Below, in pieces: positions 15,169 through 32,319 of a stretch of DNA of 47,363 bases (position 1 is the first letter of the stretch; each line of letters begins with the position of its first letter). Made by a program: the position numbers and the translations under genes. The notes beneath the pieces are model-generated. The model made no database searches and was not told the origin of the DNA. It saw only the letters and a list, made by a program, of their open reading frames with translations. Source of the stretch: Acidobacteriaceae bacterium (GTDB taxonomy: Bacteria; Acidobacteriota; Terriglobia; Terriglobales; Acidobacteriaceae); the NCBI GenBank assembly GCA_025352065.1, contig JANXUC010000079.1, positions 1-47,363 of the forward strand, written 5' to 3'.

Positions 15169-15516
15169 ATGAGCGAGCCACAGTGCGTAATTCGCCTTGA
15201 GAGCGAAGGCATGATTTCCGGGGCTGTGGAATTCAAGACAAGTCTGCTCCAGGCAATCAGCTCGGGCAAAGAAGTTGAGCTTGACATGGCATACGCTTCC
15301 GAAATTGATATCACTGCAGTTCAGTTGCTCTGGGCTACGGCTCGCGAAGCCGAGAAGCAGAATACGTCTTTGTACGCGGTGGGGCCCTTGGCAGAAGCCG
15401 TTAGTGACGCCTTTATCGAGGCGGGATTTGGGCGTCTTCTCGAGGCTCTAACCGCAAAAGCTGCATCTCCAGACCAGCTGGCCGTAGGAAACGATGGCGA
15501 TGATCGACAAGTATAA
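15169..15516 (+). CDS. STAS-domain protein leading the chemosensory operon
   Basis: This 115-residue protein is a single STAS (anti-sigma-factor antagonist or MlaB-like) domain: ISSGKEVELDMAYASEID followed by ITAVQLLWATAREAEK and the Gly-rich end IEAGFGRLLEAL. At the position where SpoIIAA-type proteins have Asp-Ser-Ser-Gly it has Asp-Ile-Thr-Ala, so the usual phosphorylatable Ser is absent; the Thr might substitute. STAS proteins commonly sit beside cheA in non-flagellar chemosensory clusters, but their job there is unsettled. Its 3' end overlaps cheA by 17-23 bp, suggesting coupled translation. The start lacks a clear ribosome-binding site. Confidence 0.75.
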   Translation: MSEPQCVIRLESEGMISGAVEFKTSLLQAISSGKEVELDMAYASEIDITAVQLLWATAREAEKQNTSLYAVGPLAEAVSDAFIEAGFGRLLEALTAKAASPDQLAVGNDGDDRQV

Positions 15517-17671
15517 ACAAGCTTTCCAGGAAGAAGCTCGCGAGATACTTCTTGATTTAGAATCCGCTTTGCTCGAACTCAACGAGCGGCCCGACGATAC
15601 CGAGCTGGTTGGACGGGCATTCCGCGCCTTGCATACGATCAAGGGTTCCGGGGCGATGTTTGGTTTTGATGATATTTCTTCCTTCACCCACCACGTTGAA
15701 AACGCCTTTGACGAAGTACGTAATGGCCGTTTGAAGGCTTCGGCGGGGCTGATCAGCTTGGCTCTGGCTGCTGTGGATCAGATTAAAGTCATGCTGGAGG
15801 AATCGGCAGGACAAGGAAAAGCGGATGTCACTGCCACAAAGAACATCTTGGCTAAGCTGCGCAATCTGACCTCGGGATCTGACGAAGCCTCGGCAAAAAG
15901 CGAGCCTTCCGGAACACTCGACCCAATGGCATCTCCAGGCCTCGCCGGGCACTTGGCCCTCGATTTCGCTTCAAGCAAACCGCCCAATGATACGGGGATC
16001 GGCTCACTCCGCAACTGGAAGATCCGGCTTGCTCCAAAATTCGATTTTCTCACTTCCGGCGCAAATCCTCTGCTGTTGTTTCGCGAACTGCGGCAAATGG
16101 GGACGCTGCAAACGACAGCTGACACTTCTGCTATTCCCTCACTCAGTGACTTGGACCCTCACTGCTGCTACATAGCGTGGGACATGATCCTAACCACAAC
16201 CTGTACCGCCGAAGAAATCAAGGATGTCTTCATTTTCGTGGAAGGCAGTTGTGAACTCTTGGTTGAGGCAATCCCCAACCCGTCACCGAACCAGGACGTT
16301 GCGCCTCCAGCGGCTACGTCCCAGAGTGTCCTCAGCCAACACATTGAAGACAGTGCCGAAGAAGGCGCGACCGCGCGATCGGCCGCCGCTACGGAAAACA
16401 CCTTGAGCGACGGACGCCGCGCCACAGACCGGGGTCCCGCCGCGAGTATCCGGGTAGCCGTAACCAAGTTGGACCAGCTTGTCGACCTGGTTGGTCAGTT
16501 AGTGACCGTGCAGGCCCGACTGGGAGAGGTCGCCAGCCGGAGCGAGAACGACGAAATGATGGGTGTTGTCGAGGAAATTGAAAGCCTGACCGCCGAACTC
16601 CGTGAGACGTCGATGAGCATGCGCACGGTGCCCCTCCGTTCGACCTTCGAACGTTTCAAGCGGCTGGTTTACGATCTCGGACGCTCGCTCGAAAAGGAGG
16701 TCGAACTGACCTTTGAAGGCGGCGATACAGAACTAGATAAAACCGTGATTGACCAACTGGGGGATCCGCTAATGCACCTGATCCGTAACAGTATGGATCA
16801 CGGCGTGGAAACACCCGAAGTTCGCCGCGCCGTCGGCAAGCGGCCCACCGCAACTATCCAACTTTCGGCTCGTCACGCAGGCGCTCAGGTTTTGATTTGC
16901 GTTTCCGACGATGGCAAAGGGATAGACCGTGAGGCGGTGCGGGCCAGAGCCCTCGAAAAAGGGCTGCTCGCGGCAGGAGTGGAACTGACCGATTCCGAAC
17001 TGCTGTCTCTGATTCTGGCGCCGGGCTTTTCTACGGCGCGTGAGATCACCGACGTTTCCGGCCGGGGCGTCGGCATGGACGTGGTACGGCGCAACGTGGA
17101 AGCGTTGCGCGGCAGCGTGGAGGTCTCCAGCCAAACCGGAGTTGGTTCCCAAGTTACGCTGCGCTTGCCGCTCACTTTGGCCATCATCGATGGATTGCTG
17201 GTGCGGGTCGGACCAGCTCGCTTCATCCTGCCCGTAGCCAATACCGTGGAATGCATTGAGTTGACCCAACAAGACATTGAGAACGCTGGCGGCAAGCATC
17301 TCTCCAACGTTCGGGGTGAAGTCATTCCCTACATTCGCCTGAGCGAATACCTCGAAATTAAGACCGAGCCGCGCGAACGCGAACAGATCATGGTGACGGA
17401 GACCGAGCACGGGAAATTCGGCTTTGTCGTCGATCAGGTCATCGGCGACCACCAGACCGTGATCAAGAATCTGGGACGGGTTTATCGCAATATCCAGTTT
17501 GTTTCAGGGGCCACTATTTTGGGCGATGGAGACGTTGCCCTCATTCTGGACCCCCACCGGTTGGTCCAGGCGGTTCTACGCGGAGTGACGCAGAGTCCCA
17601 AAGCGCTTGCCCAGGCCGCTCCTGCGCCGAGTCCTCGAAACCTGGCACACGCTGCGGTTTCGTCTGGATGA
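15500..17671 (+). CDS. cheA: Chemotaxis histidine kinase CheA
   Basis: This is the central kinase of the cluster, about 723 residues. The P1 HPt domain carries phospho-acceptor His45 in [14 protein letters not shown]. Residues about 165-265 form a separate domain ([46 protein letters not shown]) in the P2 position that does not resemble the enteric P2. A low-complexity linker leads to dimerisation P3 ([20 protein letters not shown]), then the P4 ATPase with N box [13 protein letters not shown]1 VSDDGKGID and [18 protein letters not shown]. The P5 CheW-like regulatory domain is at the end ([20 protein letters not shown]). ATG 15494 and ATG 15500 are both possible; 15500 has better spacing (9 bp) from AGGAA at 15486-15490. 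It should phosphorylate the CheY and CheB encoded downstream. Confidence 0.95.
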
Positions 17672-17760
17672 GCCCCGAAGGGAGAGGCCGCCGACCCGGG
17701 GGTTCGCAAATCACTCGCAACCAATGCAATCCAATGTCCGCAACGCAGAGAGGAATAGAA

Positions 17761-20220
17761 ATGAAGAGCGCAAAAAAAGAAACTCGAAATACAAAGACGG
17801 CCAGCCGCCCCGAAGGCATTGGTCTTGCCCAGTTGCAGTCCATGGTCGATAGCCTGCCGATTAACGTCATCTTGGCGGGCTTGGACCTAAAGATCCAATA
17901 CATGAACCCGCGGTCCAGCAAGACTTTGGAGAGCCTGCAGCAATTTCTGCCGATCAAGGTTTCCGAAATGGTGGGCCAATCCATCGATGCCTTCCACAAG
18001 AACCCCACGCATCAACGCAGCATGCTGGCCGATGACAAACACCTTCCCCACCAGACGCGGATCAAAGTGGGCACGGAACTTTTGAGTCTTCTGGTCACGG
18101 CGATCTACGACCAAGACAAGAAATACTGCGGGGCGATGGCGACATGGGAAATCATCACCGAAGCGGTCCGCATTGAAGCCGCCAAGATTGAGTTGGACGG
18201 CCAGATCGCCGCCATCAGCAAGTCGCAGGCTGTCATCGAGTTCAAGATGGATGGCACGATTGCCGAGGCGAACGACAACTTCCTGAAGACGCTGGGCTAC
18301 ACGCTGGATGAGATTAAGGGTAAGCACCACGGCATGTTCGTCGAAGAAGCCTACCGCCAGAGTTCCGACTACAGGGAGTTCTGGGCGAAGCTGAATCGCG
18401 GCGAGTATGTGGCGGGTGAATTCAAGCGTATCAGCAAAGGCGGAAGGGAAGTGTGGATCCAGGCTTCCTACAATCCCATTCTCGATGCCACCGGCAAGTC
18501 CACCAAGGTGATCAAATTCGCCACGGATGTGACGCAACAGAAGCTGCTGACGGCCGACTATTCAAGCCAGATCTCAGCCATTGGCAAGTCGCAGGCTGTG
18601 ATCGAGTTCAAAATGGACGGCACGATTGTGACCGCCAACGACAATTTCCTGAAGACTCTGGGCTACACGCTGGATGAGGTCAAGGGCAAGCATCACGGCA
18701 TGTTTGTCGAAGAGGCCTATCGGCAGAGTTCCGACTACCGGGAATTCTGGGCCAAGCTGAATCGCGGCGAATACGTGGCGGAGGAATTCAAGCGCATCGG
18801 CAAGGGCGGGAAAGAAATTTGGATTCAGGCTTCATACAACCCCATTCTCGATCTCAACGGGAAACCCTTCAAAGTGGTCAAGTATGCTTCGGATCTCACG
18901 CCACAAAAGCTGGCCCTCAACGCCATGATCGGGGACGTCACGATGTTGTCCAAGGCGGCAATGCAAGGCAATCTGGCGACGCGCGCCGAGGTCGCCAAAC
19001 ACAGTGGCGAATATCAAACAATCGTGCAGGGATTCAACGATACCCTGGATGCGATCATCGCCCCTCTGAATGTGTCGGCCAACTATGTGGAGCGCATCAG
19101 CAAGGGTGACATTCCCGCTCTGATCGTCGAGGCGTACCAAGGCGAGTTCAACAACATCAAGAACAGCCTCAATGCACTCATCGGCGCCATGAACGACATC
19201 ACGCAGGCCGCCGATGAAATCTCCCGCGGCAACCTGACCGTTACGCTTCGAGAACGGTCAAAAGAAGACAAACTGATGCAAGCCCTGTCCGCCATGGTCC
19301 ATGACCTGACTCGGACCGTCAGCGAGATTCGTACCATTGCCAGCGAAGTCAGCGCGGCCAGCATGTCCATCAGCACTGCCTCGGTAGAGATATCGAGCGG
19401 AGCTTCCACGCAGGCGGCTTCCGCGGAAGAAGCCTCTTCCTCGATGGAAGAGATGGTCTCGAACATCAAGCAAAACGCCGACAACGCGCAGCAAACCGAC
19501 AAAATCGCCAACAAATCGGCGAAGGATGCCCAAGAAAGCGGCAGAGCGGTGGTCGAGGCAGTCACTGCCATGAAGGAAATTGCGAGCAGGATTTCCATCA
19601 TTGAAGAGATTGCTCGCCAAACCAATTTGCTGGCGCTTAACGCCGCCATCGAAGCGGCACGCGCGGGAGAACACGGCAAGGGATTTGCCGTGGTCGCCGC
19701 TGAAGTTCGCAAGCTCGCGGAACGCAGTCAGAAGGCGGCTGGAGAAATCAACCAGTTGTCTGGAACCACCGTCAAGGTCTCGGAAAAAGCTGGCGAAATG
19801 CTGGACAAGCTCGTACCGGACATCCAGAAGACAGCGGAACTGGTGCAGGAAATTACGGCTGCCAGTAAAGAACAGGATACCGGCGCCGAACAGATTAACA
19901 AAGCGTTGCAGCAGCTCGAGAAGGTGATTCAGCAGAACGCCTCGGCTTCAGAAGAGATGGCGGCAACGACGGAGCAGCTGACCGGGCAGGCGGATCAGTT
20001 GATGAGCGCACTTGGATTCTTCCGCACCGGAGAGGACACGCCCGTTCGAGCGGCTAAGGCGGCTGCGGCAGGAGCGGGCCGCAATGGTAATGGCGGAGCG
20101 CATCGGTCGGACGGACTTGGCGCCCTCGCATCCGGTTCCAAGCCAGCCTCCAAGTCCGGCGTCTCTCTCAAAATGAAGGACAAAGAGGATGCGACGGACA
20201 AAGAGTTCGAACGTTATTAG
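17761..20220 (+). CDS. Soluble methyl-accepting receptor with three PAS domains
   Basis: This is an 819-residue chemoreceptor with no membrane segment or signal, so it should sit in a cytoplasmic array. PAS1 (about 20-130; [19 protein letters not shown]) is followed by two nearly identical PAS copies (148-262 and 270-384) of the BdlA/Aer-like kind, containing [14 protein letters not shown] and [20 protein letters not shown]. Two HAMP-like units follow ([20 protein letters not shown] and [20 protein letters not shown]). Then comes a full signalling domain with the canonical tip [20 protein letters not shown] and [18 protein letters not shown]. The C-terminus is a basic Ala/Gly-rich tail ending EFERY, not a clear CheR-docking pentapeptide. 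ATG 17761 has AGAGAGGA at good spacing; the longer frame from 17668 overlaps cheA and adds unconserved residues. PAS domains suggest redox, heme, flavin or small-ligand sensing. Confidence 0.93.
18202..18912 (+). repeat. Tandem 345-bp PAS duplication inside the receptor gene
   Basis: Copy 1 (18202-18546) and copy 2 (18568-18912) are the same length, 115 codons each, separated by 21 bp. By hand alignment about 18 of 115 residues differ, and long stretches are identical, such as [13 protein letters not shown] and [18 protein letters not shown]. Many codons differ at third positions, so the duplication is not brand new, or it has drifted under protein-level selection. Confidence 0.9.
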
Positions 20221-20306: not shown

Positions 20307-20813
20307 ATGAGTGTTAACGAAATTACCGAGACGCGACAGTATCTCACTTTCAAGTTGGGGGCCGAGGTCTTTGGCATCGATGTGGCCAAGGTGCGCGAGG
20401 TTCTCGACTTCACAACTATTACGGAAATTCCGAGAACACCGGATTTCATGAGTGGAGTGATCAACCTGAGGGGCAGTGTGGTACCGGTGGTCGATCTGCG
20501 CCTCTGTTTTCAGATGTCGAAAACGGAACGGACGCAGAACACCTGCATCGTGGTGGTTGAAGTCTTACTGGAGGGCGAAGCGACGGTAATTGGCGCCCTG
20601 GCGGATTCAGTGGAAGAAGTCCTCGATATGGAACCTTCTGAGATTCAGCCCGCACCCAGGATTGGAACCCAGATTCGAACCGAGTTTCTTCATGGCATGG
20701 GGCGACGCGAATCGCAGTTCATCATGATTCTTGACATCGACCGCGTTTTCTCGGCCGAAGAGCTTTCAACCGTGCGCAGTGTGGAAGGGAACGCTCTTGA
20801 AGCAAGCGCCTAG
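20307..20813 (+). CDS. cheW: CheW coupling protein
   Basis: This 168-residue protein is a single CheW domain: YLTFKLGAEVFGIDVAKVRE, EIPRTPDFMSGVINLRGSVV and PVVDLRLCFQM are classic, ending with ILDIDRVFSAEEL. It should link the soluble receptor to CheA. The frame opens at 20238, but ATG 20307 has AAGGAG at 20295-20300 with 6 bp spacing and starts right before the fold, so I use it. It lies 86 bp after the receptor stop. The C-terminal 20 residues (VEGNALEASA) extend beyond the usual domain end and look disordered. Confidence 0.95.
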   Translation: MSVNEITETRQYLTFKLGAEVFGIDVAKVREVLDFTTITEIPRTPDFMSGVINLRGSVVPVVDLRLCFQMSKTERTQNTCIVVVEVLLEGEATVIGALADSVEEVLDMEPSEIQPAPRIGTQIRTEFLHGMGRRESQFIMILDIDRVFSAEELSTVRSVEGNALEASA

Positions 20814-20867: not shown

Positions 20868-21722
20868 ATGACCGAACAGATCGACTCCCTGAGCGCGCGA
20901 GATCTGGATCGAGTGTGCAGTCTGGTCTACCAGCACTCCGGCATTAATCTCAACGCAGAAAAAAGAATCATGCTCGAAGGCCGGCTCAAGCGCCGCATGA
21001 CCTCGCTCAAGCTGGACTCTTACAGCGAATACTGCAAGTACCTGTTCGCCGGTGATCGCGATCCCAATGAAATCACACAACTGATCGACGCAGTGAGTAC
21101 GAACAAGACTGACTTCTTCCGCGAGAAGGAGCATTTCGAGGTGTTGTTGGCGAAGGTACTTCCCGCGTTAGCGGCAAGAAATGGGACTGTCCGCGAAATA
21201 GTGCTTTGGAGTGCTGGCTGTTCGAGCGGAGAAGAACCCTACACGCTGGCCATCGTGTTGACCGAGTATGCCCGCCTGCATCCCGCGTTTCGCTTCCGGA
21301 TCCTGGCCACCGATATTTCCACCTCAGTGCTGGAGAAGGCTCAACGAGCGGTTTTTACCGCCGAGGTCGTGAACCCTGTTCCGCCCGAGTTGCGGCGACG
21401 ATTCTTCCTCCGCAGCAAGGATCGCAAATCGAATCTGCTGCGGGTGGTGCCAGAACTGCGCCAGAAGATCGAGTTCCGCCACCTGAATTTGATGGAAGAC
21501 TTCGCTCTTCCCGAGCCCGCCGACGTCATCTTTTGTCGCAATGTGATCATCTACTTTGACCGGCCCACGCAGGAGCGCCTCTTTCGGAAATTTGCCCGGC
21601 AGCTCGTCAACGGCGGCTACGTTTTCGTCGGCCATTCCGAAAGCCTCCATCACATGGACGTTCCACTGGTGCCGGTGGCGCCGGCCGTTTACAGGAAAGC
21701 TGATGGCTACGATAGAAAATGA
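20868..21722 (+). CDS. cheR: Chemoreceptor methyltransferase CheR
   Basis: This 284-residue protein transfers methyl groups from S-adenosylmethionine to receptor glutamates. It has the N-terminal helical domain (LVYQHSGINLNAEKRIMLEG, RLKRRMTSLKLDS), the conserved NKTDFFREKEHF, the SAM-binding WSAGCSSGEEPYTLAI and ILATDIS, and the late motif VIFCRNVIIYFDRPTQERLF with GYVFVGHSES. It has no TPR extension, so it is the plain type. Its 3' end overlaps cheD by 20 bp. With CheB and CheD encoded next, the receptor has a full adaptation system. Confidence 0.95.
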   Translation: MTEQIDSLSARDLDRVCSLVYQHSGINLNAEKRIMLEGRLKRRMTSLKLDSYSEYCKYLFAGDRDPNEITQLIDAVSTNKTDFFREKEHFEVLLAKVLPALAARNGTVREIVLWSAGCSSGEEPYTLAIVLTEYARLHPAFRFRILATDISTSVLEKAQRAVFTAEVVNPVPPELRRRFFLRSKDRKSNLLRVVPELRQKIEFRHLNLMEDFALPEPADVIFCRNVIIYFDRPTQERLFRKFARQLVNGGYVFVGHSESLHHMDVPLVPVAPAVYRKADGYDRK

Positions 21723-22209
21723 CATCCCTGTCTTCTACCTGCAACCCGGAGAAGTTCACCTGGCCCGCAGCCCCGCCGTCCTTCGGACCCTGCTGGGCTC
21801 CTGCGTTGGGGTTACATTTTGGAGTTCCCGCCTCCGGCTGGGCGCGCTTTGTCATGGCATCCTGCCGCGATCTCCATCCGGAATCTGCACTGCGGAGGGC
21901 TACCGCTACGTGGACTTTGCCATTCGCGATCTGCTGCGGCAGTTTGTTGACTTGGGTGCCGAGCGCAAAGAAATCGAGATCAAAGTCTTTGGCGGCGCCG
22001 ACGTCCTTCCCTTGTTTGGCGCCAGCTCCAAGAAGACTACCGTGGGACAGCAAAATTGCCAGGTGGTGCTGGAGGTCCTGGCGATCGAGAGATTGGTCAT
22101 AGTCGCATCGGACGTAGGTGGCAGCGTGGGCCGCACGATTGAGTTGAACACGGGATCGGGCGAAGTACTGTTGCGTCGGCTGACCCGCAAAAACGGGCAG
22201 CCATGGTGA
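21703..22209 (+). CDS. cheD: Chemoreceptor glutamine deamidase CheD
   Basis: This 168-residue protein should deamidate specific receptor glutamines and may bind a CheC-type phosphatase. The catalytic Cys34 lies in TLLGSCVGVTFW and His51 in LGALCHGILP; VFGGADVLPLF follows and the C-terminal part (VGGSVGRTIELNTGSGEVLL) matches the family end. The frame extends upstream to 21556, but ATG 21703 has AGGA at 21693-21696 and begins the domain directly, so the true gene overlaps cheR by 20 bp. No cheC was found in the window, so any partner is elsewhere or replaced. Confidence 0.93.
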   Translation: MATIENDIPVFYLQPGEVHLARSPAVLRTLLGSCVGVTFWSSRLRLGALCHGILPRSPSGICTAEGYRYVDFAIRDLLRQFVDLGAERKEIEIKVFGGADVLPLFGASSKKTTVGQQNCQVVLEVLAIERLVIVASDVGGSVGRTIELNTGSGEVLLRRLTRKNGQPW

Positions 22210-22249: not shown

Positions 22250-23314
<1,065 letters not shown>

Positions 23315-23321
23315 GGCATAT

Positions 23322-25142
23322 ATGGCTCCTCCACAAAAAATAACCGAGGCTACACAGACAATGGCGCAGGGGGCTCTCATGTCCGCAATCCGCTTGAAAC
23401 CGGCAAATAATCGGAGCGCGGAGGAGGTCACGGAGATGTTGTCCAGCCTCAACCGTGCACAGGGTGAGCTTGTCCGTTTGGCTGCTTCCAGCGAGCTGGA
23501 AATCGCCGCCGTCACCCATGCCTTTAAGGGCCTCGCCGGCGAAGCTGGTCAGGTCCTGCAGCAGGCTGCGGTCATTGTTTCTTCTGTAGGCAATGAAAAT
23601 GTAAGTGCCGCGCTGTCTAGGGTGCAAGGGCTGTCGGAAACGGTAAAAACCTTCTTAGGCCAAAGGCTGGAAGCTGCCACATCCATCCTGCAGACCCTGC
23701 AAGCCGCAGAGGTTTTGCTACGCCACTTGGCTTGGGCTACGCAACGCCAGGAGGCGATCGCTGGCCATCTCAAGGCCTTGAGTGTCCTGACCAACGTCGA
23801 AGTGGCACAAATGGGTGACGCCGGAAGCGGCTTTCACTTTCTCGCGCAGGAGCTCTACAGCTTTGCCAAGTCGGTTTCCGAGCAAACCCAGGAATTGGCG
23901 CGCCAAGCCGAGAGCCGCAAGCAAGCCATTGAAGAGACGCGCCGCGACTTGGCGTCCGGTTTGCCCGGTCTGCAAAGCGAACTCGTTCGCGCCGAATCCG
24001 ATCTACTCAGCACGCTGCAAGTAATCGGTGACGGGTTGAGCCTGCTGGCCGCCGTTCCGGGGCGCTTTCAGATTAGCGTCGAAACTACGACGCAACAAAT
24101 CGCCGGGGTCGTTTCCGCTATTCAGGCCCAGGACATTACGCGTCAGCAAGTCGAGCATGTGCAGGAGGGGCTGCGCCTGGCGGCCTCCACGCTTGGGACA
24201 GCAGGCGGCCAATCCGCTAGTCGGTTCCCCACCGTCTACGCTGGATTGACCATTCAGATTTCTCAACTCAAGAACATTCAACAAACCGTGGAGCACTGGG
24301 TCTCGCAGGTCGGCAGCTGCATGGGAGGCATTCAGAAGCTCAACGCGTCGGAGGTCGTCAACGTCGGCTCCATCGTTCTGATTCAGGAACGAGAACTGTC
24401 GTCGCAACTGGCCCGGGTCGAAGAACTCCAGCAAAAAAGCCAGGCTTACGGCGTCAAGATACAAGATACGGTGCAGGGCTTGTCCAGCCTGGTTGAATTG
24501 GTGAATGAGCATTTAAAGCGCTCCCAGACCATCCGCCAGCGCCTGCAGTTGCTGACTTTCAACTCTCTTATTGAAGCCCACCATCTTGGTCGCCAGGGCG
24601 GGATCGTTTCGGCCATCGCGAACCTGATCAAAGGGGTGTCGGCGGAGTGGATTGTCATCGCCGACCAATCGCAAGCGGCCATCACGGAAATCGTCCGCTT
24701 GGTGCAACAGACCAGCCATGTCATGGAGGTGTTTTCCGATGCTAGTTCGGAGAAGCTCCGCGCCGACCAGATGCACAGCAACGCGACGCTGGACGGCGTG
24801 CGGAATACGGCTGTATTCGTGGCCCACGAAGCTGCACAAATGCAAGGTGTCACCGAAAGAATGCAGACCCATGTGGGCTATGCCAGGGACACCGTCGCAC
24901 GCCTCGAAGCCTGCTTCGGTCGCCTCGGTGTGGCGTTGACAGAGATCGAAACGCTGGCGGGCGGGTTGCAAAGGGACAATCCACAGATCGCGGGAGAGTA
25001 CGATGCAGCCGAAGTCGAGCGACTGTTTTCGACTTCCTACACTACGGAAATCGAGCGCCAAGTCCTGCAATCCGCATTGCTAGGAACCCCCTTACCGGTG
25101 GTGGAAACGTCGCTCGTGAGTCACGCGGTGGAATTTTTCTGA
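23322..25142 (+). CDS. Unusual coiled-coil chemosensory protein: CheZ-like motif plus degenerate receptor tip
   Basis: This 606-residue protein has no membrane segment and is almost entirely predicted alpha-helical by eye. I know no named family for it. Around residues 268-285 it has SAIQAQDITRQQVEHVQEGL; QDITRQ resembles the CheZ catalytic motif QDLTGQ, keeping the Asp and final Gln. Around residues 405-450, QRLQLLTFNSLIEAHHLGRQ then GGIVSAIANLIKGVSAEW aligns with the receptor tip consensus ([16 protein letters not shown], GRGFAVVAxEVRKLAE), but the conserved charged residues are lost. The C-terminus has DAAEVERLFSTSYTTEIERQ. It sits between cheB and cheY, 7 bp after cheB. It may be a CheY phosphatase, a receptor-array modulator or both; that is inference. 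The frame is open from 23220, but ATG 23322 is the first start after cheB. Confidence 0.8.
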   Translation: MAPPQKITEATQTMAQGALMSAIRLKPANNRSAEEVTEMLSSLNRAQGELVRLAASSELEIAAVTHAFKGLAGEAGQVLQQAAVIVSSVGNENVSAALSRVQGLSETVKTFLGQRLEAATSILQTLQAAEVLLRHLAWATQRQEAIAGHLKALSVLTNVEVAQMGDAGSGFHFLAQELYSFAKSVSEQTQELARQAESRKQAIEETRRDLASGLPGLQSELVRAESDLLSTLQVIGDGLSLLAAVPGRFQISVETTTQQIAGVVSAIQAQDITRQQVEHVQEGLRLAASTLGTAGGQSASRFPTVYAGLTIQISQLKNIQQTVEHWVSQVGSCMGGIQKLNASEVVNVGSIVLIQERELSSQLARVEELQQKSQAYGVKIQDTVQGLSSLVELVNEHLKRSQTIRQRLQLLTFNSLIEAHHLGRQGGIVSAIANLIKGVSAEWIVIADQSQAAITEIVRLVQQTSHVMEVFSDASSEKLRADQMHSNATLDGVRNTAVFVAHEAAQMQGVTERMQTHVGYARDTVARLEACFGRLGVALTEIETLAGGLQRDNPQIAGEYDAAEVERLFSTSYTTEIERQVLQSALLGTPLPVVETSLVSHAVEFF

Positions 25143-25210: not shown

Positions 25211-25573
25211 ATGAAAAAGATATTGGCGGTTGACGATTCTGCCAGCATTCGTCAGATGGTGAGCTTCACCCTGAAGACTGCTGGCTACGATGTCATGGAC
25301 GCAATCGATGGCAGGGATGGCCTCGCCAAAGCAGGCAAAGAGAAATTCGATCTGATCCTGACCGATCTCAACATGCCAAACCTCGACGGAATCGGACTCA
25401 TCCTCGGGGTTCGCAAACTCCCTGGCTACTTTTTTGTTCCGATCCTGATGCTTACGACCGAATCGCAGGCCGAGAAGAAAGATGAAGGGCGCAAGGCAGG
25501 CGCTACAGGATGGATTGTAAAGCCTTTCAATGGCGAACAGTTAGTCGCCGCGCTGCAGAAACTGCTGAAGTAA
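25211..25573 (+). CDS. cheY: CheY-like response regulator
   Basis: This 120-residue single-domain receiver has the acidic pair Asp8-Asp9 ([11 protein letters not shown]), phospho-acceptor Asp52 in [13 protein letters not shown], the switch Thr in LMLTTES and Lys in WIVKPF. This full CheY set makes it the natural output of CheA. ATG 21 codons inside the longer frame is chosen because AGGAGGAA lies just upstream and the receiver fold begins at MKKILAVDD. It is 68 bp after the coiled-coil protein and 10 bp before the hybrid kinase. With no motor genes nearby, the target of CheY is unknown. Confidence 0.94.
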
Positions 25574-25583
25574 TAGGGATAGC

Positions 25584-28500
25584 ATGGTCGAGAACAATCA
25601 GGACGCAGCAGCGCACCGCACCCCGAAACCGAGATCGGGTTCCGGCCTCGCCTTCGGCCCGGCACTGGACCTGGACTCAGGCGTCACGCGGCTGCATGCG
25701 GAGACCATTTCCGCGGAAACTGGGCCGCAGCCGCCCGGCGACCCGGCGTACGGCTCTCTTGCATTCGCAAACCTGCCCCTCCTGGCCTCCCTCATTGAGC
25801 AGGCTGCCGAAGCGATTCACGGGATCGATCTGGAGGGAAATTGCACGTTTGCCAATTCCGCGTGCGCGCGGCTGCTCGGGTACGCGGCGCCAAGCGAACT
25901 TCTCGGGAAGAACATGCACGCGCTCATGCATCACACGCGACGCGACGGAAGCGCCTGTCCGCAGTCGAAATGCGCGATCAGTCTGGCCGTGCGCCAAGAG
26001 CAAGAACACCACATGACCGACGAGCTTCTGTGGCGAGCCGACGGTAGCGGCTTCCTGGCTGAGTATTGGTCGTATCCCATGTACCGCGGCAAGGAACGTA
26101 TTGGGGCAGTGGTTACCTTTCTCGATATCACGGCGCGGCGCGAGACCGAGGAGGCTCTCAAGGAATCGGAAGAGCATTACCGCCGCCTGGTTGAAGACAA
26201 TCTTGCGGGGATCTTCCGCTACTCCAAGGATGATAAATTTGTCGCGGCCAACCGCGCTTTTGCATTGATGCTCGGATACTCCTCGCCCGAAGAACTGATC
26301 GGCCTGAAGCGTACGGATCATTACTTCAGTCCGGAGGACGCTGATCGTGTGACGGAGCGCTTGCACTGGGAGCAAAATTTGACCGACTCCGAAGTCTGCC
26401 TCAAGCGAAAGGACGACGCACCCGTCTGGGTACTCGCCAAAGTTGGCTGGGTAAAAAACGACAATGGCGATTCCGTCGTCGCTGGCACTTACATAGATAT
26501 CACACGGTGCAAGCTGGTCGAAGCAGCGCTCAAAGCCTCCGAAGAGCATCATCGCCGCCTGTTTGAGCGTAACTTGGCTGGCATTTTCCGCTACTCCGCC
26601 GAAGGCACCGTCATGGATGCCAATCAAGCCTTCGCCACCATGCTGGGGTATTCCTCCCCGTCCGAAGTCACAGGGCATGCACGAAACGAGCTTTTCTTCG
26701 ATCCCGGCGAAGCGGACCGCACCTGGGCCAGCTTGCGCCAGGAAAAGACGCTGACCAAACTCGAGGTGTGCCTCAAACGCAAGGACGGCGGTGCTGTGTG
26801 GGTGCTGGAAAACATTGGCTGGGTGGAAAACGGCACGCAAGCGCCGCTGGTCGAAGGCATCTGCATCGATATTACGGCTCGCAAGTTGGCCGAACACGAG
26901 ATTGGTAAAGCTCGAGATGCAGCCGAATCCGCCAGCCGCGCCAAGAGCCAGTTCCTGGCTAACATGAGCCATGAAATTCGCACCCCAATGAATGGCGTGA
27001 TCGGCATGACCTCGCTGCTCTTGGATACTTCCCTCAGCGCTGAGCAACGCCAGTTTGCCGAGATCGTCCACACCAGCGGCAAAACCCTGCTGGGAATCAT
27101 TAGCGATATCCTCGATTTTTCAAAAATAGAAGCCCGCAAGCTGTCTCTGGAAACCTTGGACTTTGACTTACAAGCTCCCCTTCGCGAAGCCGCGGAGATG
27201 GTAGCTCTTGAGTCCTACAAGAAAGGGTTGGAATTGCTCTGCAGAATTGATCGCGAGGTTCCCACGCTGCTCCGGGGCGACCCCGGGCGTTTGCGTCAGA
27301 TTCTCGTAAATCTTCTCTCGAATGCCGTCAAGTTCACAAGCGCGGGTGAGATTAGCCTTAGCGTGGAAGTGGAGGCGGAGTACGAAAGCACGGTCACGCT
27401 CCGCTTTGCCGTAAAGGATACTGGCATTGGCTTTCCTGAGGAACAAGCTCCGTTCCTGTTCGCCCCCTTCGTCCAGGGCGACGGGTCCACGACGCGCAAG
27501 TACGGCGGCACGGGCCTGGGTCTCACCATCAGCAGACAACTCGTTGAGCTGATGGGAGGGCGAATCGGCGCACACGGCGCCGTCGGTCGCGGGGCCACGT
27601 TCTGGTTCACCATCACCTTGGAAAAACAACTTCAGCGCGGAGCCGATTCGACCCACCTCTACATCACTCTGCAGGCTCCCAGAGTGCTCGTCGTCGAAAA
27701 TAACGCCTCGAGCCGCGCTCTCCTCCGCCCCCTTCTGAAAGATCTGGGCTGCCGGACCGAAGAAGCCTGTGACGCGGGTTCCGCAATGGCTACCCTGCAG
27801 GCAGCTACTCAAGCCGGTGATCCCTTCCGTATTGCCTTGCTCAATTCCGAATTGCCGCAAGTCAACGGCAAAGAACTCGGCAGCCGCATAGTCGCCGACC
27901 CCACGCTGCAGGGAACCGCCCTGTTGCTCATGGCGGCCTTGGGACAAGAGATGGAAGACAGTTCCCTGCTTCGATTGGGATTTGTCGGAAAGCTCTCGAA
28001 ACCCGTCTGGAAATTGTCTCTGCAGGAATCGCTCACCTTGGCTTTGCAAAAAAGACGAGACACAGGAATTTTGCATGAACCGCCTCTTGCGTCCGCCCTT
28101 GGCCCCGTCTCCGCTCTCCCCGTCGCGGCTCGCGCCAAAGTTCTGGTCGTAGAAGACAATGCAACCAATGAAAAAGTGGCGTTGGCAATCCTCGGCAAGC
28201 TTCAGCACCACGCCGATGTTGCTCGCAGCGGCGAAGCCGCTCTTGAGGCGCTTCGGACAAGCGCTTACGACATTGTTCTCATGGATTGCGAGATGCCGAA
28301 TATGGACGGCTTCGAGACTTGCCGCCGCATCCGAAATGGCGCCGGTGGATCTCACAATTCCGCAATCCCAGTCATTGCCGTCACCGCCAATGCAATGCAA
28401 GGCGATCGTGAAAAATGCATCGCGGCAAAAATGGACGATTACCTTTCAAAGCCGATCGAACCGGAACAACTGGCCCAAATCATTTTGAAGTGGTTTTCTA

Positions 28501-28895
28501 ACCTGCAGGGGAAGGAGCTCATGAAACCGTCGACTTTGGCCACTTCACTCCTGCGGGAATTGATCTTCGCGGAAAGCGACTTGGTCGCCCGCCTTTCGGG
28601 CGACACCGACTTGGCCCGAATGATTGTCTCGGGATTTGTCAGCGACGTTCCTGGACAGCTTAAGAATCTACGAGAGCAAATTGACAGAAGCGATGCTGCT
28701 GGCGCCAGCGCGCAGTCGCACACGCTGAAAGGCGCTGCAGCCACGGTTTCCGCAGTGGAATTGAGCGCTCTCAGCCTGAAGATTCAACTGGCTGCCACCG
28801 CCGGAGACTGGTCTCGTGCCTCCGGCCTTCTTATCCAGCTTGAGAACCAATTTGAGACTTTTACAACTACTTTGAAACAGTCGGGTTGGATTTAG
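25584..28895 (+). CDS. Hybrid histidine kinase: PAS3-HisKA-HATPase-pseudoREC-REC-HPt
   Basis: This is a 1,103-residue soluble kinase with a complete phosphorelay on one chain. Three PAS domains occupy about residues 65-180, 195-310 and 318-432; the last two share [15 protein letters not shown] and CLKRKD, so they are related copies. HisKA has His463 in [16 protein letters not shown]. The ATPase has [19 protein letters not shown] and [20 protein letters not shown]. The first receiver (about 690-815) is degenerate: VVENN replaces the acidic pair and Asn754 (LLNSELP) replaces the phospho-Asp. The second (about 850-970) is intact, with Asp901 in [12 protein letters not shown] and Lys in LSKPIE. 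The HPt domain has His1046 in [11 protein letters not shown]. It follows cheY by 10 bp, so it probably feeds or drains the same regulators. Confidence 0.95.
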
Positions 28896-29339: not shown

Positions 29340-29398
29340 AAACCGCCGCAACCTACGCCCTCCCGCTGCGTGGCTTTGAGCACACTAGGGCTACCTCC

Positions 29399-29414
29399 TG
29401 TGACTGCGGTCACA
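29399..29414. promoter_or_regulatory. Crp-like dyad TGTGA-N6-TCACA
   Basis: TGTGA (29399-29403) and TCACA (29410-29414) form a perfect Crp-type inverted repeat, extended by one more pair to CTGTGAC/GTCACAG. Its centre is 57 bp before the ferredoxin start. Crp/Fnr-family proteins bind such sites; which member acts here is unknown. It could also be a small hairpin, but the arms exactly match the Crp consensus. Confidence 0.5.
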
Positions 29415-29462
29415 GCAGCCCTCCCGCTTCCATGTCAATATGGGGGCCATAGCGAGGCAGAC

Positions 29463-29735
29463 ATGTCTGGACCAGATCGAGGCAACGTTGTTATCAACCT
29501 TTTCGAGTGTAAAGGTTGCGGACTGTGTGTGGACTCCTGTCCGCCCAAGTGCCTCGAGCTACTACCAGAACTGAGCGCCTCCGGTGTACACCCCGCGCAG
29601 TACCTGGGAAAGGCCTGCACTGGATGCGGCATCTGTTTCTATTGCTGCCCTGAGCCAGGCGCCATTACCGTTTACCGCCTCACGCCGCCACCCAAGTCAG
29701 TGCCACCAGGAGAACTTCATGCGGCAGCTCTGTAA
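29463..29735 (+). CDS. Two-[4Fe-4S] ferredoxin subunit of the 2-oxoacid oxidoreductase
   Basis: This 90-residue protein has two cluster motifs, [15 protein letters not shown] and [14 protein letters not shown], typical of the delta subunit (KorD/VorD) that takes electrons from the thiamine-containing core. The longer frame from 29370 adds residues with no ferredoxin similarity; ATG 29463 starts right before the fold ([20 protein letters not shown]). It overlaps the alpha-subunit gene by 17 bp, a strong sign of a shared complex. The C-terminal 20 residues ([18 protein letters not shown]) are a short Pro-rich tail. Confidence 0.9.
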
Positions 29736-30771
29736 AGGGAATGTCGCCATCGTCAAAGGTGCGATCTTGGCCGGTTGCCGTTCTTATTATGGATACCCCA
29801 TTACTCCAGCCAGTGAGATTGCTGAAGCTGCTGCTCTCCTAATGCCACAGGTTGGTGGCACCTTCCTGCAAGCGGAAAGCGAAGTCGCCGCCATCAACAT
29901 GGTTTACGGCGCAGCCGCAGCTGGTGCGCGCGTCATGACCGCATCCTCCGGCCCGGGCCTGAGCCTCATGCAGGAAGGCATCTCCTACTGCGCGGGTGCC
30001 GAACTCCCCTGCGTCATCGTCGACATCATGCGCGGAGGACCGGGCCTCGGCAACATCGCTCCCGAACAAAGCGACTACTTTTCTATGGTCAAGGGCGGCG
30101 GCCACGGGTGCTATCGCAATCTCGTACTCGCGCCTGCATCCGTGCAGGAGATGGCCGACCTCACCGTACTCGCTTTCGAACTGGCCGACCGCTATCGCAA
30201 TCCCACCATTCTTCTCGCCGACGGCTTTGTTGGCCAGATGATGGAGCCGCTCGATCTAGAATATCGAGAAATCCCAATTCCAGAACGCCCTTGGGCCGTA
30301 AAGGGCACGCCGGAGACACGCAAAAATGTTGTGAACTCAATCTTCCTGGAGCCCGACGATCTGGAAGCCCACATTCGCAAGCTGGAAGCAAAATACATCC
30401 GAGCTTCGCAGATCGAGTGCCGTTCAGAGACTTTCCACACTGAAGACGCCGAAGTCCTGCTCGTTGGCTATGGCATTGCTTCGCGCGTATTGCATTCCGC
30501 CGTCGAAAGGGCACGGCGCGACGGCCTCAGGGCGGGCTTCTTCCGTCCAATCACGCTCTGGCCCTTCCCCAAACAGGCCTTGCTCGATGCGGCTCAAAAC
30601 GTCAGCAGGATTCTGGTTGTAGAACTCAGCAACGGCCAGATGGTGGAAGACGTCCGCCTCACTATCGAAGGCAGAATACCCGTCGATTTCTATGGACGCA
30701 CGGGAGGCAACGCCCCGTCCGTCGAAGAAGTATATTCGCAAGTCATGCAGCACTTAATGGCAATGGCGTAG
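29719..30771 (+). CDS. vorB: 2-oxoacid:ferredoxin oxidoreductase alpha subunit, VorB-like
   Basis: This 350-residue subunit matches 3-methyl-2-oxobutanoate dehydrogenase subunit Vor[74 protein letters not shown] and [17 protein letters not shown]. The enzyme class oxidatively decarboxylates a 2-oxoacid to an acyl-CoA, passing electrons to ferredoxin. Substrate choice between branched-chain oxoacids and 2-oxoglutarate cannot be settled from sequence alone, since VorB and KorA are close. The start at ATG 29719 has AGGAG at 29708-29712. It overlaps the ferredoxin gene and is followed after 51 bp by the beta-gamma fusion. Such enzymes are oxygen-sensitive, so low-oxygen metabolism is implied. Confidence 0.88.
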
Positions 30772-30822
30772 CAAGAGCGACCGATTGTGCCGTGGTTGAT
30801 TTTAGACGAGTGGAGAACGAGC

Positions 30823-32319
30823 ATGGCAATCGACAGCAAGACCAGCGCGAAGGCTTTGGAAATCTTGGCTGCGGGCTACCAGGTCAGTCACTCCAAGTCG
30901 CCAGCTTTCTACGACACCTATGAGCGCAAGGGCGATTGCAAACACCAAACACACTATTGCCCCGGTTGCGGCCATGGCGTGGCTCACAAACTCATTGCCG
31001 AAGCGCTCGCGGATCTGGGTTTGCAGGACAAGACAATCTTCGTCAGCCCGGTTGGTTGTTCCGTTTTCGCGTACTACTATTTCGATGTGGGCAATGTGCA
31101 ACTCGCTCACGGCCGTGCGCCCGCCGGAGCCACTGGGATCAAGCGCACATGCCCGGAGGCAATCGTCATTTCCTATCAAGGCGACGGGGACCTTGCCGCC
31201 ATCGGCACCGCGGAAATCATCCACGCGGCCAATCGCGGCGAAAAGATTACCGTCTTCTTCGTCAACAATGCCGTCTACGGCATGACGGGCGGACAGATGG
31301 CGCCTACGACCATGCTTGGGCAGAAGACTACGACCTCACCTTGGGGACGACGCGCCTCGAATGAAGGTTTTCCGCTGCACATGGCTGAGTTAATCGCAAC
31401 GCTCGAAGCTCCGGTGTATGTGGAGCGCGTTGCCCTCTCCGATAACAAGAACATCATGAAGGCGCGCAAGGCCGTCCGCCGCGCTCTCGAAGTTCAACGC
31501 GACGGCATCGGCTTCTCCTTCGTTGAGATTCTCTCCCCCTGCCCCACCATCTGGGCCAAGGATCCAGTTCAGGCTCGCAAGTGGGTTGCAGAGAAAATGA
31601 TCCCCGAGTACCCACTCGCCGTCTTCAAAGACAAGGCCCACGAAGCAATTGAGAATCGGGCAATCCCGCAGCGGTCCGTACAAGACGTTCTGGAAATCAG
31701 GGCGAAGGATGATGTCCCACTAACGGAACTACCGAAACATTCGCACCATGCAGAAGACCTCCGTATCAAGGTAGCCGGATTTGGAGGGCAAGGAGTTCTC
31801 CTACTAGGCCAATTGCTGACGGAAATGGGCATGCGGGAAGGCCTCGAAGTCAGCTGGCTTCCTTCCTATGGCCCGGAAATGCGCTCCGGCAGCGCCAACT
31901 GCCACGTCTGTCTGTCACAACGGAGAATTGGGACGCCCCTAGTCACGCGCCCGGACGTCCTGATCGCCATGAACGAACCCTCGCTGCGTAAGTTCGCGGC
32001 GCAGGTCGCCCCCGGAGGGCTCATTCTCTACAACCAGGAACACCTGCCGCAGGACCTCCATCTTCCGCACGCCCGCGTCCTCTGTATTCCGGCTTCGGAA
32101 ATCGCCGACAAACTGGGCTCCAGCAAGGCCGCCAACATGGTGCTACTCGGTGCGCTGCTCGAGGCCACGCACTGCCTGCTCCCCGCAACCGCCGAAGGAG
32201 TTCTAACAACCAAGATCAAGAAGGCGGATATGCTGACATGGAACTGCGCGGCTCTGAGGGCCGGACGAGAGTTCATGGACAACCTCACGCCAGATGGCAC
32301 GATCACCCGTGCTCACTAG
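30823..32319 (+). CDS. 2-oxoacid:ferredoxin oxidoreductase beta-gamma fusion
   Basis: This 498-residue protein joins two subunits that are often separate. Residues 1-300 are the thiamine diphosphate-binding beta subunit: HYCPGCGHGVAHKLIAEAL, FVSPVGCSVFAYYYF, SYQGDGDLAAIGTAEIIHAA and FFVNNAVYGMTGGQMAPTT. Residues 312-498 are the gamma subunit: IKVAGFGGQGVLLLGQLL, SWLPSYGPEMRSGSANCHV and VTRPDVLIAMNEPSLRKF. The junction is a polar linker near residues 285-312. ATG 30823 has GGAG at 30812-30815 and is preferred over ATG 30787. With the alpha and ferredoxin genes, all four functional units are present in three genes. Confidence 0.92.
   Translation: MAIDSKTSAKALEILAAGYQVSHSKSPAFYDTYERKGDCKHQTHYCPGCGHGVAHKLIAEALADLGLQDKTIFVSPVGCSVFAYYYFDVGNVQLAHGRAPAGATGIKRTCPEAIVISYQGDGDLAAIGTAEIIHAANRGEKITVFFVNNAVYGMTGGQMAPTTMLGQKTTTSPWGRRASNEGFPLHMAELIATLEAPVYVERVALSDNKNIMKARKAVRRALEVQRDGIGFSFVEILSPCPTIWAKDPVQARKWVAEKMIPEYPLAVFKDKAHEAIENRAIPQRSVQDVLEIRAKDDVPLTELPKHSHHAEDLRIKVAGFGGQGVLLLGQLLTEMGMREGLEVSWLPSYGPEMRSGSANCHVCLSQRRIGTPLVTRPDVLIAMNEPSLRKFAAQVAPGGLILYNQEHLPQDLHLPHARVLCIPASEIADKLGSSKAANMVLLGALLEATHCLLPATAEGVLTTKIKKADMLTWNCAALRAGREFMDNLTPDGTITRAH

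Follow-up and report, generated by a model that had tools for sequence, protein, structure and literature searches.

The window, which is the whole stretch of DNA that was analyzed (47,363 nucleotides from an Acidobacteriaceae bacterium), holds a chemosensory (che) gene cluster in which a frame of 606 codons, designated P0001, lies between cheB and cheY (Table 1). A helical protein of this length in this position, with QDITRQ near residue 270, had been described in an earlier note on the same DNA and this description was borne out, as the frame is uninterrupted, its ATG is located 7 bases past the cheB stop, the predicted product is helical and the neighboring genes were confirmed by Pfam. When P0001 was searched against Pfam and NCBIfam nothing was obtained above any cut-off and PHROGs gave nothing decisive, while a single-sequence search returned no plasmid match and no viral-contig relative.

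The chemoreceptor encoded in the cluster ends in KEFERY (20160-20220), a pentapeptide-like tail of the kind to which CheR/CheB bind, and similar receptor ends were found in several related clusters (FERF, FQEF, FTRF). On the 3' side of the che cluster, at 29370-32319, are 2-oxoacid:ferredoxin oxidoreductase-like genes (ferredoxin-like, alpha and beta/gamma frames, named by eye from the translation). A PAS-rich hybrid kinase comes directly after cheY (Table 1), and the output of the window's chemosensory system may be other than a flagellar motor.

Table 1. Features of the che cluster and of P0001, by position in the window (the cheY limits are approximate).
Feature	Position	Strand	Basis
STAS-domain protein (compare CheS of rhizobia)	15169..15516	+	PF13466
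CheA histidine kinase	15494..17671	+	Pfam
PAS-PAS-HAMP chemoreceptor, MCP signalling domain above cut-off	17668..20220	+	Pfam
CheW	20307..20813	+	Pfam, frame scanned from 20301
CheR	20868..21722	+	Pfam
CheD, start uncertain	21719..22209	+	PF03975 within frame 21610-22209
CheB	22253..23314	+	Pfam
P0001 gene, putative double-hairpin CheZ-type protein ("DITRQ family", provisional name), 606 aa	23322..25142	+	Open frame; family profile
First receptor-like hairpin tip, residues about 150-180	23769..23861	+	3g67 match; F171 33/33, E160 30/33
QAQDITRQQVEHVQE, residues 268-282, proposed catalytic D271 and Q275	24123..24167	+	Conservation; CheZ active-site profile match
Second, degenerate receptor-like tip, residues about 408-440	24543..24641	+	N414 33/33, G423 32/33
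YTTEIER, residues 573-579, conserved YTMxxER element ahead of the tail	25038..25058	+	R579 33/33; Y573, T574 32/33
Tail AVEFF, counterpart of relatives' GDNVELF, proposed docking peptide	25125..25139	+	F606 33/33
CheY, proposed substrate as CheY-P	25211..25573	+	Response_reg match; adjoins P0001 gene
PAS-rich hybrid kinase, two receivers and Hpt, directly 3' of cheY	25584-28895		Pfam

Relatives of P0001

A scan of a genome collection (84,980 species) gave three relatives, L040-L042, each with both hairpins in its frame, and these were found in a Thermodesulfobacteriota MAG, a Desulfovibrionales MAG and a Desulfovibrio MAG. At E ≤ 1e-20 the profile made from P0001 and these three sequences matched 41 of the 297 genomes in the phylum to which the Desulfovibrionales MAG belongs, although some of these matches were partial and two of the 41 genomes had themselves supplied rows to the profile. 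Loci were obtained from 28 further matches, one of which (L077) was left out with a broken frame. P0001, L040-L042, the 27 further loci and two Rhizobiaceae plasmid proteins (P0003, P0004) made up a set of 33 members; five of the 27 added loci do not contain the motif as a regular expression and were included all the same. The plasmid members are encoded at L051 8692-10416 (Shinella), where the annotation is "type VII secretion target", and at L052 8722-10452 (Agrobacterium), annotated as "chemotaxis protein". Identity to P0001 was 14-23% across the 33 members and 17-23% in the four-sequence alignment.

A 32-member profile that included P0001 as a row scored P0001 at 428.6 bits over nearly its full length. 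Of the 396 genomes in the phylum to which the window belongs, 82 matched this profile at E ≤ 1e-15. Among the matches listed, near-complete coverage of the profile was seen only for P0001 and for a protein of genome G247, which has QFHDITRQ and the tail GDNVELF; the others covered a portion, which is also what ordinary and single-hairpin receptors give. The literature searched, with subscription papers mostly outside its scope, did not describe the double-hairpin family or receptors with a CheZ site.

Receptor-like hairpins and predicted fold

The closest solved relative by sequence was a soluble chemoreceptor, 3g67, which matched residues 106-269 of P0001 (E 2.9e-4), and a first receptor-like tip, LSVLTNVEVAQMGDAGSGFHFLA (about residues 152-175), falls inside this stretch. 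The second tip, LLTFNSLIEAHHLGRQGGIVSAIANLI, is located at about residues 408-440. The canonical receptor tip carries a Glu and an Arg, which were used here as reference residues: in the first tip E160 is kept and the Arg is replaced by Gln163, and in the second E418 is kept and the Arg is replaced by H421. The degenerate tip that the earlier note placed at about residues 405-450 is therefore real and has lost its Arg as claimed, but the Glu, also said to be lost, is present, and the first tip at about 150-180 had been missed. With two tips (about 150-180 and about 405-445) P0001 would be a tandem of two receptor-like hairpins.

Against MCPsignal (PF00015) P0001 scored 8.2 bits, the cut-off being 34.6 bits, and it was the exception among 32 family members, of which the other 31 were matched at E < 1. 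A weak match to the NCBIfam BB0569 chemotaxis family, far under cut-off, was obtained at residues 380-457. Two AlphaFold monomer models of P0001 had mean pLDDT values of 70.8 and 60.6 with low confidence around the motif, and in both the helix was interrupted at residues 270-273, where pLDDT was about 60. The active-site helix of CheZ runs unbroken.

Comparison of the first model with the PDB by Foldseek gave no match at E ≤ 0.001, and in VIA-align TTYH channels and pore-forming toxins outranked chemoreceptors, as long helical bundles do. The model could be superposed on 3g6b over residues 56-271 (213 aligned, Z 9.9, rmsd 3.2) and gave Z 11.2 with 2ch7 and Z 11.8 with 3zx6, values which unrelated helical bundles exceed and which come from a model of mean pLDDT 70.8. 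CheZ was absent among the best 50 matches listed by Foldseek or VIA-align, which is uninformative either way. By sequence (3g67) and, as far as the model predicts, by fold (3g6b) the first hairpin resembles the MCP cytoplasmic hairpin (PF00015; 3g67/3g6b, 2ch7), whereas the presence of two hairpins, degenerate tips and a CheZ-like segment sets P0001 apart from MCPs.

These likenesses raise the alternative that P0001 derives from receptors and has a structural or adaptor part in the array, and that DITRQ docks CheY, the STAS protein or CheA with no phosphatase chemistry. Two receptor-like tips, each with its own family-conserved residues, would suit such a protein, as would the MCPsignal matches of the other members and a conservation that extends past the Asp and Gln to R274 and H279. 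However, the tip Arg is gone at both P0001 tips and the motif segment fits the CheZ active-site profile in register, which ordinary receptors do not, and we consider an adaptor of this kind unlikely.

The conserved DITRQ segment

Residues 268-280 of P0001 are QAQDITRQQVEHV, with QAQDITRQ at 268-275. The P0001 sequence by itself proves little since the motif is frequent in shuffles: P0001 holds a single DxxxQ where shuffles average 1.27, and in 5000 shuffles QDxxxQ was found in 11.6% and QD[LIV][TS]xQ in 0.7%. The weight comes from the relatives, and chance as the whole explanation of the motif was rejected by way of family conservation and not by way of P0001.

The DITRQ segment is the most conserved block across the 33 aligned members, with Q268, D271, R274, Q275 and H279 invariant (33/33) and the other motif columns nearly so (I272 in 31, E278 in 30, T273 and Q276 in 29). 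When only P0001 and L040-L042 were aligned, residues 271-282 (DITRQQVEHVQE) formed the longest run, of twelve consecutive invariant residues. Invariant columns beyond the motif are F171, N414, R579 and the terminal F606, while E58 was found in all 32 members with a letter present. The traits of the double-hairpin family, namely two hairpins, QxxDxxRQ between them, YTxxxER and a tail with a terminal Phe, are all present in P0001.

The residue two before the Asp is Phe or Tyr in 25 of the 33 members, followed mostly by His or Gln before the D. P0001 has A266 and Q270 with Ala at the Phe position (QAQD as against FQD), and is among the 8/33 members that are non-aromatic there. In CheZ, AXXF(Y)Q is reported to stand directly before DXXXQ (PMC7750401). 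This substitution, together with a tail that lacks the GDN of the non-rhizobial relatives, could be taken as a sign that P0001 has decayed into an inactive family member. That is very improbable, given a frame open over 606 codons that begins 7 bases past cheB and the retention of the five invariant motif residues and the final Phe at 14-23% identity.

Comparison with CheZ

The CheZ sample contained 17 active sites, from E. coli, from plasmid records (five) and from 11 of 15 loci of family-carrying genomes. The loci left out were L124, L125 and L131, where the motif was outside [FY]QDxx[GR]Q, and L134, which is an ordinary receptor; as the loci were filtered by this expression, the CheZ profile was chosen for the kind of CheZ nearest to the motif. 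Small CheZ-like proteins are encoded at L132 758-1405 and L133 864-1520, with YQDVARQ (Arg for Gly, R-type) and CheZ-like tails DDLLAEFGF and DDLLSEFGL, and are possible intermediates to the DITRQ motif.

In profile-profile comparisons the 96-residue family windows holding the motif scored 33.7-45.1 against the 17 CheZ active sites, and the best of them matched at 95.4% (E 1.9e-8, 53 columns) with the catalytic Asp and Gln in register. No other family window exceeded 18.7 and no reversed control exceeded 12.3. When the two R-type CheZ were removed the family match fell to 34.8 (89%), and with only gamma/beta CheZ it was 21.7 (17%), the top windows still being around the motif; a first CheZ profile (six gamma/beta sequences, full length) had given weak matches of 4-8% at four windows holding the motif or core. 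Windows from 25 ordinary receptors scored at most 13.1 against the CheZ active sites. With a CheZ segment model none of these 25 receptors was matched at E < 0.01, compared with 30/32 family members (19/32 without R-type CheZ). The best domain of P0001 with this model scored 8.4 bits at 232-284 (3.6 without R-type CheZ), and 8.4 bits was reached by none of 500 P0001 shuffles. The Asp and Gln of the CheZ motif, which the earlier note had recognized as kept in QDITRQ, are D271 and Q275, in register with the CheZ active-site profile and invariant in the family.

Library models gave weak agreement. Pfam CheZ was matched at E < 1 by 9/32 members (best 1.1e-4) and NCBIfam CheZ by 6/32, all of those inspected being under cut-off, and in three inspected double-hairpin members the Pfam match was on the motif at 10.0-18.2 bits (cut-off 30.7). 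P0001 gave no match to Pfam CheZ (PF04344) up to E 10. When 27 whole genomes were searched for CheZ, the search picked out the family protein in four of them, at 17-21.1 bits and under cut-off. Profile searches had been proposed earlier as a check; on P0001 alone they returned no Pfam CheZ match and an MCPsignal score of 8.2 against 34.6 bits, and it was the family that gave the CheZ match at 95.4%.

The P0001 family is like CheZ (PF04344) in having the DxxxQ pair in register, a gene beside cheY and a short C-terminal tail after a variable stretch. Unlike E. coli CheZ (214 aa, QDLTGQ), P0001 has 606 aa, two receptor-like hairpins and Arg for Gly in DITRQ, and the CheZ tail DDLLxSLGF differs from VEFF of P0001 and GDNVELF of its relatives. 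By the defining features that were tested P0001 is outside CheZ (under cut-off, other tail) and outside MCPsignal.

The C-terminal tail

Most members (30 of 33) have GDNVELF at the C-terminus or a sequence very near to it, with Asn-Val or Asn-Ile; DLFxDALF is found in the two rhizobial members and AVEFF in P0001. Several D..[IV]ELF copies are found ahead of the end of L041, and such repetition is, as read from the sequence, the pattern of a short docking motif. At 26 loci no other closed frame of at least 90 codons ended in [VIAL][ED][LF]F, an expression which ITLF-type endings would escape. The C-terminus of CheZ is described as a short CheY-binding region (PMC7750401). Since CheZ also ends in this way, CheY-P would be the likeliest partner of the tail.

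CheD-matching frames near single-hairpin QFQD genes end in ITLF (L030 15017-16894, L032 3319-3945) or VELFT (L031 5880-6812), as if the CheD of these clusters might share the docking partner of the tail.

Gene neighborhoods and other phosphatases

Regions around 26 of the 28 new loci were read, and these contained 27 copies of the family gene. A same-strand cheY was present downstream, within about 1 kb, in 25 of the 27 copies, cheA in 23/27 and a STAS-like frame in 15/27, while no che gene was visible around two copies (L099, L100). On its plasmid the Shinella copy is divergent and beside a STAS-CheY-CheA-CheW-MCP cluster; the Agrobacterium plasmid copy is near CheB, CheR, CheW, receptors and CheA, with no cheY within the stretch shown. 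Sequence comparison places P0001, as a diverged member, in a widespread and unnamed family that is nearly always beside CheY.

The neighborhoods also bear on whether a CheZ-type phosphatase at this locus would have another substrate, with CheY a mere neighbor: the receiver of CheB, the hybrid kinase or a further response regulator. A large hybrid kinase (two receivers, Hpt) does come right after cheY, and kinases and response regulators flank the gene in some relatives as well. Hybrid-kinase matches are missing from some loci, however, and the near-constant neighbor is cheY, so a substrate other than CheY-P seems improbable.

The window cluster contains no CheC, CheX or CheZ, as the earlier note had stated, and no CheZ match was found in the window genome. 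A genome lacking other CheY phosphatases was nevertheless rejected, since two other che clusters (contigs C53, C99) each have a CheX beside a receiver-domain protein; both CheX are over cut-off and have ExxN by eye (EICN, ELAN). P0001 takes, in the window cluster, the place of CheX in the other two. It is likened to CheX and CheC (ExxN motif) by its proposed role as the CheY-P phosphatase of a che cluster, and is unlike them in having no Pfam match to either.

CheX, CheZ and CheC were then sought in 27 genomes, those of the window and of 26 family holders, at E ≤ 1e-4, 0.01 and 1e-4, respectively. In 4 genomes the CheZ search returned family proteins; apart from these, none of the three was present within 8 kb of an aligned family gene. 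The nearest CheX is in G473, about 15 kb away from a second copy, followed by one in G683 at about 22 kb from the family gene. A CheX match was obtained in all 27 genomes except G511 and G573. G511 has CheC, and G573, for which assembly completeness is not given, had none of CheX, CheZ and CheC at these thresholds.

Single-hairpin relatives

An operon orthologous to that of the window was found in genus g33 of the same bacterial family (G032, L025; CheB 77%, CheW 72%, MCP 67%, CheA 51%). There the gene beside cheY encodes, instead of P0001, a single-hairpin receptor that has QFQDVMRQ and the tail AAIELF. Among single-hairpin QFQDxxxQ proteins (L025-L033, L155-L157, L159) a cheY neighbor was found for 14/14 genes read (10 + 4). 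The motif segment of nine of these proteins matched that of the double-hairpin family at 98.9% (score 90) and CheZ at 95.8%. All seven that were scanned exceed the MCPsignal cut-off, some with an intact receptor tip (e.g., L025), and Pfam CheZ was matched at E < 1 in one of the seven (L028, E 1.2e-4, across the motif). These MCP-like proteins have the segment, the ELF-type kind of tail and the cheY adjacency in common with the P0001 family, but only one hairpin.

Proposed function

We consider it likely that P0001 acts as a CheY-P phosphatase of CheZ type with a chemoreceptor for its scaffold. The earlier note had offered a phosphatase on a receptor scaffold as one possibility, and the family evidence favors it: the DITRQ block is conserved, it is the sole part that matches CheZ, and ordinary receptors are unmatched; the activity itself we infer from these comparisons. 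The scaffold would consist of two receptor-like helical hairpins in tandem, as suggested by the sequence relatives, and at the end of the first hairpin a helix would present the CheZ active-site segment. In CheZ, Asp143 contacts CheY and Gln147 positions the attacking water. Because D271 and Q275 are in register with CheZ and invariant, the same roles would fall to them, contact with CheY to D271 and placement of the attacking water to Q275. The C-terminal tail would tether the partner, most likely CheY-P, as the CheZ C-terminus does. With such a site and tether P0001 would end signaling in the window's CheA/CheY cluster, where CheC, CheX and CheZ are absent, and it is probably the off-switch of a chemotaxis-type system that seemed to have no enzyme for this. 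Against a phosphatase speak the divergence of P0001 (Ala for Phe, a tail without GDN), the dependence of the CheZ match on the family and on a varied CheZ set chosen by motif, and two structure models that are poor at the motif and interrupt the helix there.

A precedent for this activity outside CheZ is offered by CheT of Sinorhizobium meliloti, a DxxxQ protein which is reported to dephosphorylate CheY-P (PMC12654446). The same source describes CheT as without significant sequence homology to known chemotaxis proteins and as found in complex with CheR, and its cluster as including the STAS protein CheS, which binds CheA (PMC12654446). P0001 is likened to CheT by this description, through DxxxQ and a STAS gene in the cluster.

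More tentatively, many bacteria might carry receptor-phosphatases, that is, receptor-hairpin proteins, single or double, with their own CheZ-type site acting on CheY-P. Those with one hairpin and a normal tip could be part of the array, next to CheA, and the double-hairpin P0001 family would be a soluble offshoot; CheZ could share ancestry with the receptor segment, the small R-type CheZ (L132, L133) being intermediates. We hold this wider proposal to be possible though rather doubtful. If it is true, the receptor state could gate the phosphatase as well as the kinase. Chemosensory clusters without a recognizable phosphatase, of which the window cluster is an example, may hide one, and a CheZ site in proteins annotated as receptor, "chemotaxis protein" or "type VII secretion target" would fill this gap in at least two phyla and in the Rhizobiaceae. 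A CheZ site in receptor-like proteins would also link the evolution of receptor and phosphatase.

Long CheZ-type frames were seen as well. Those of L120-L123 (G592, G683, G725, G656) encode 507-562 residues, with the matches to the N-terminal and active-site halves of CheZ about 210-250 residues apart.
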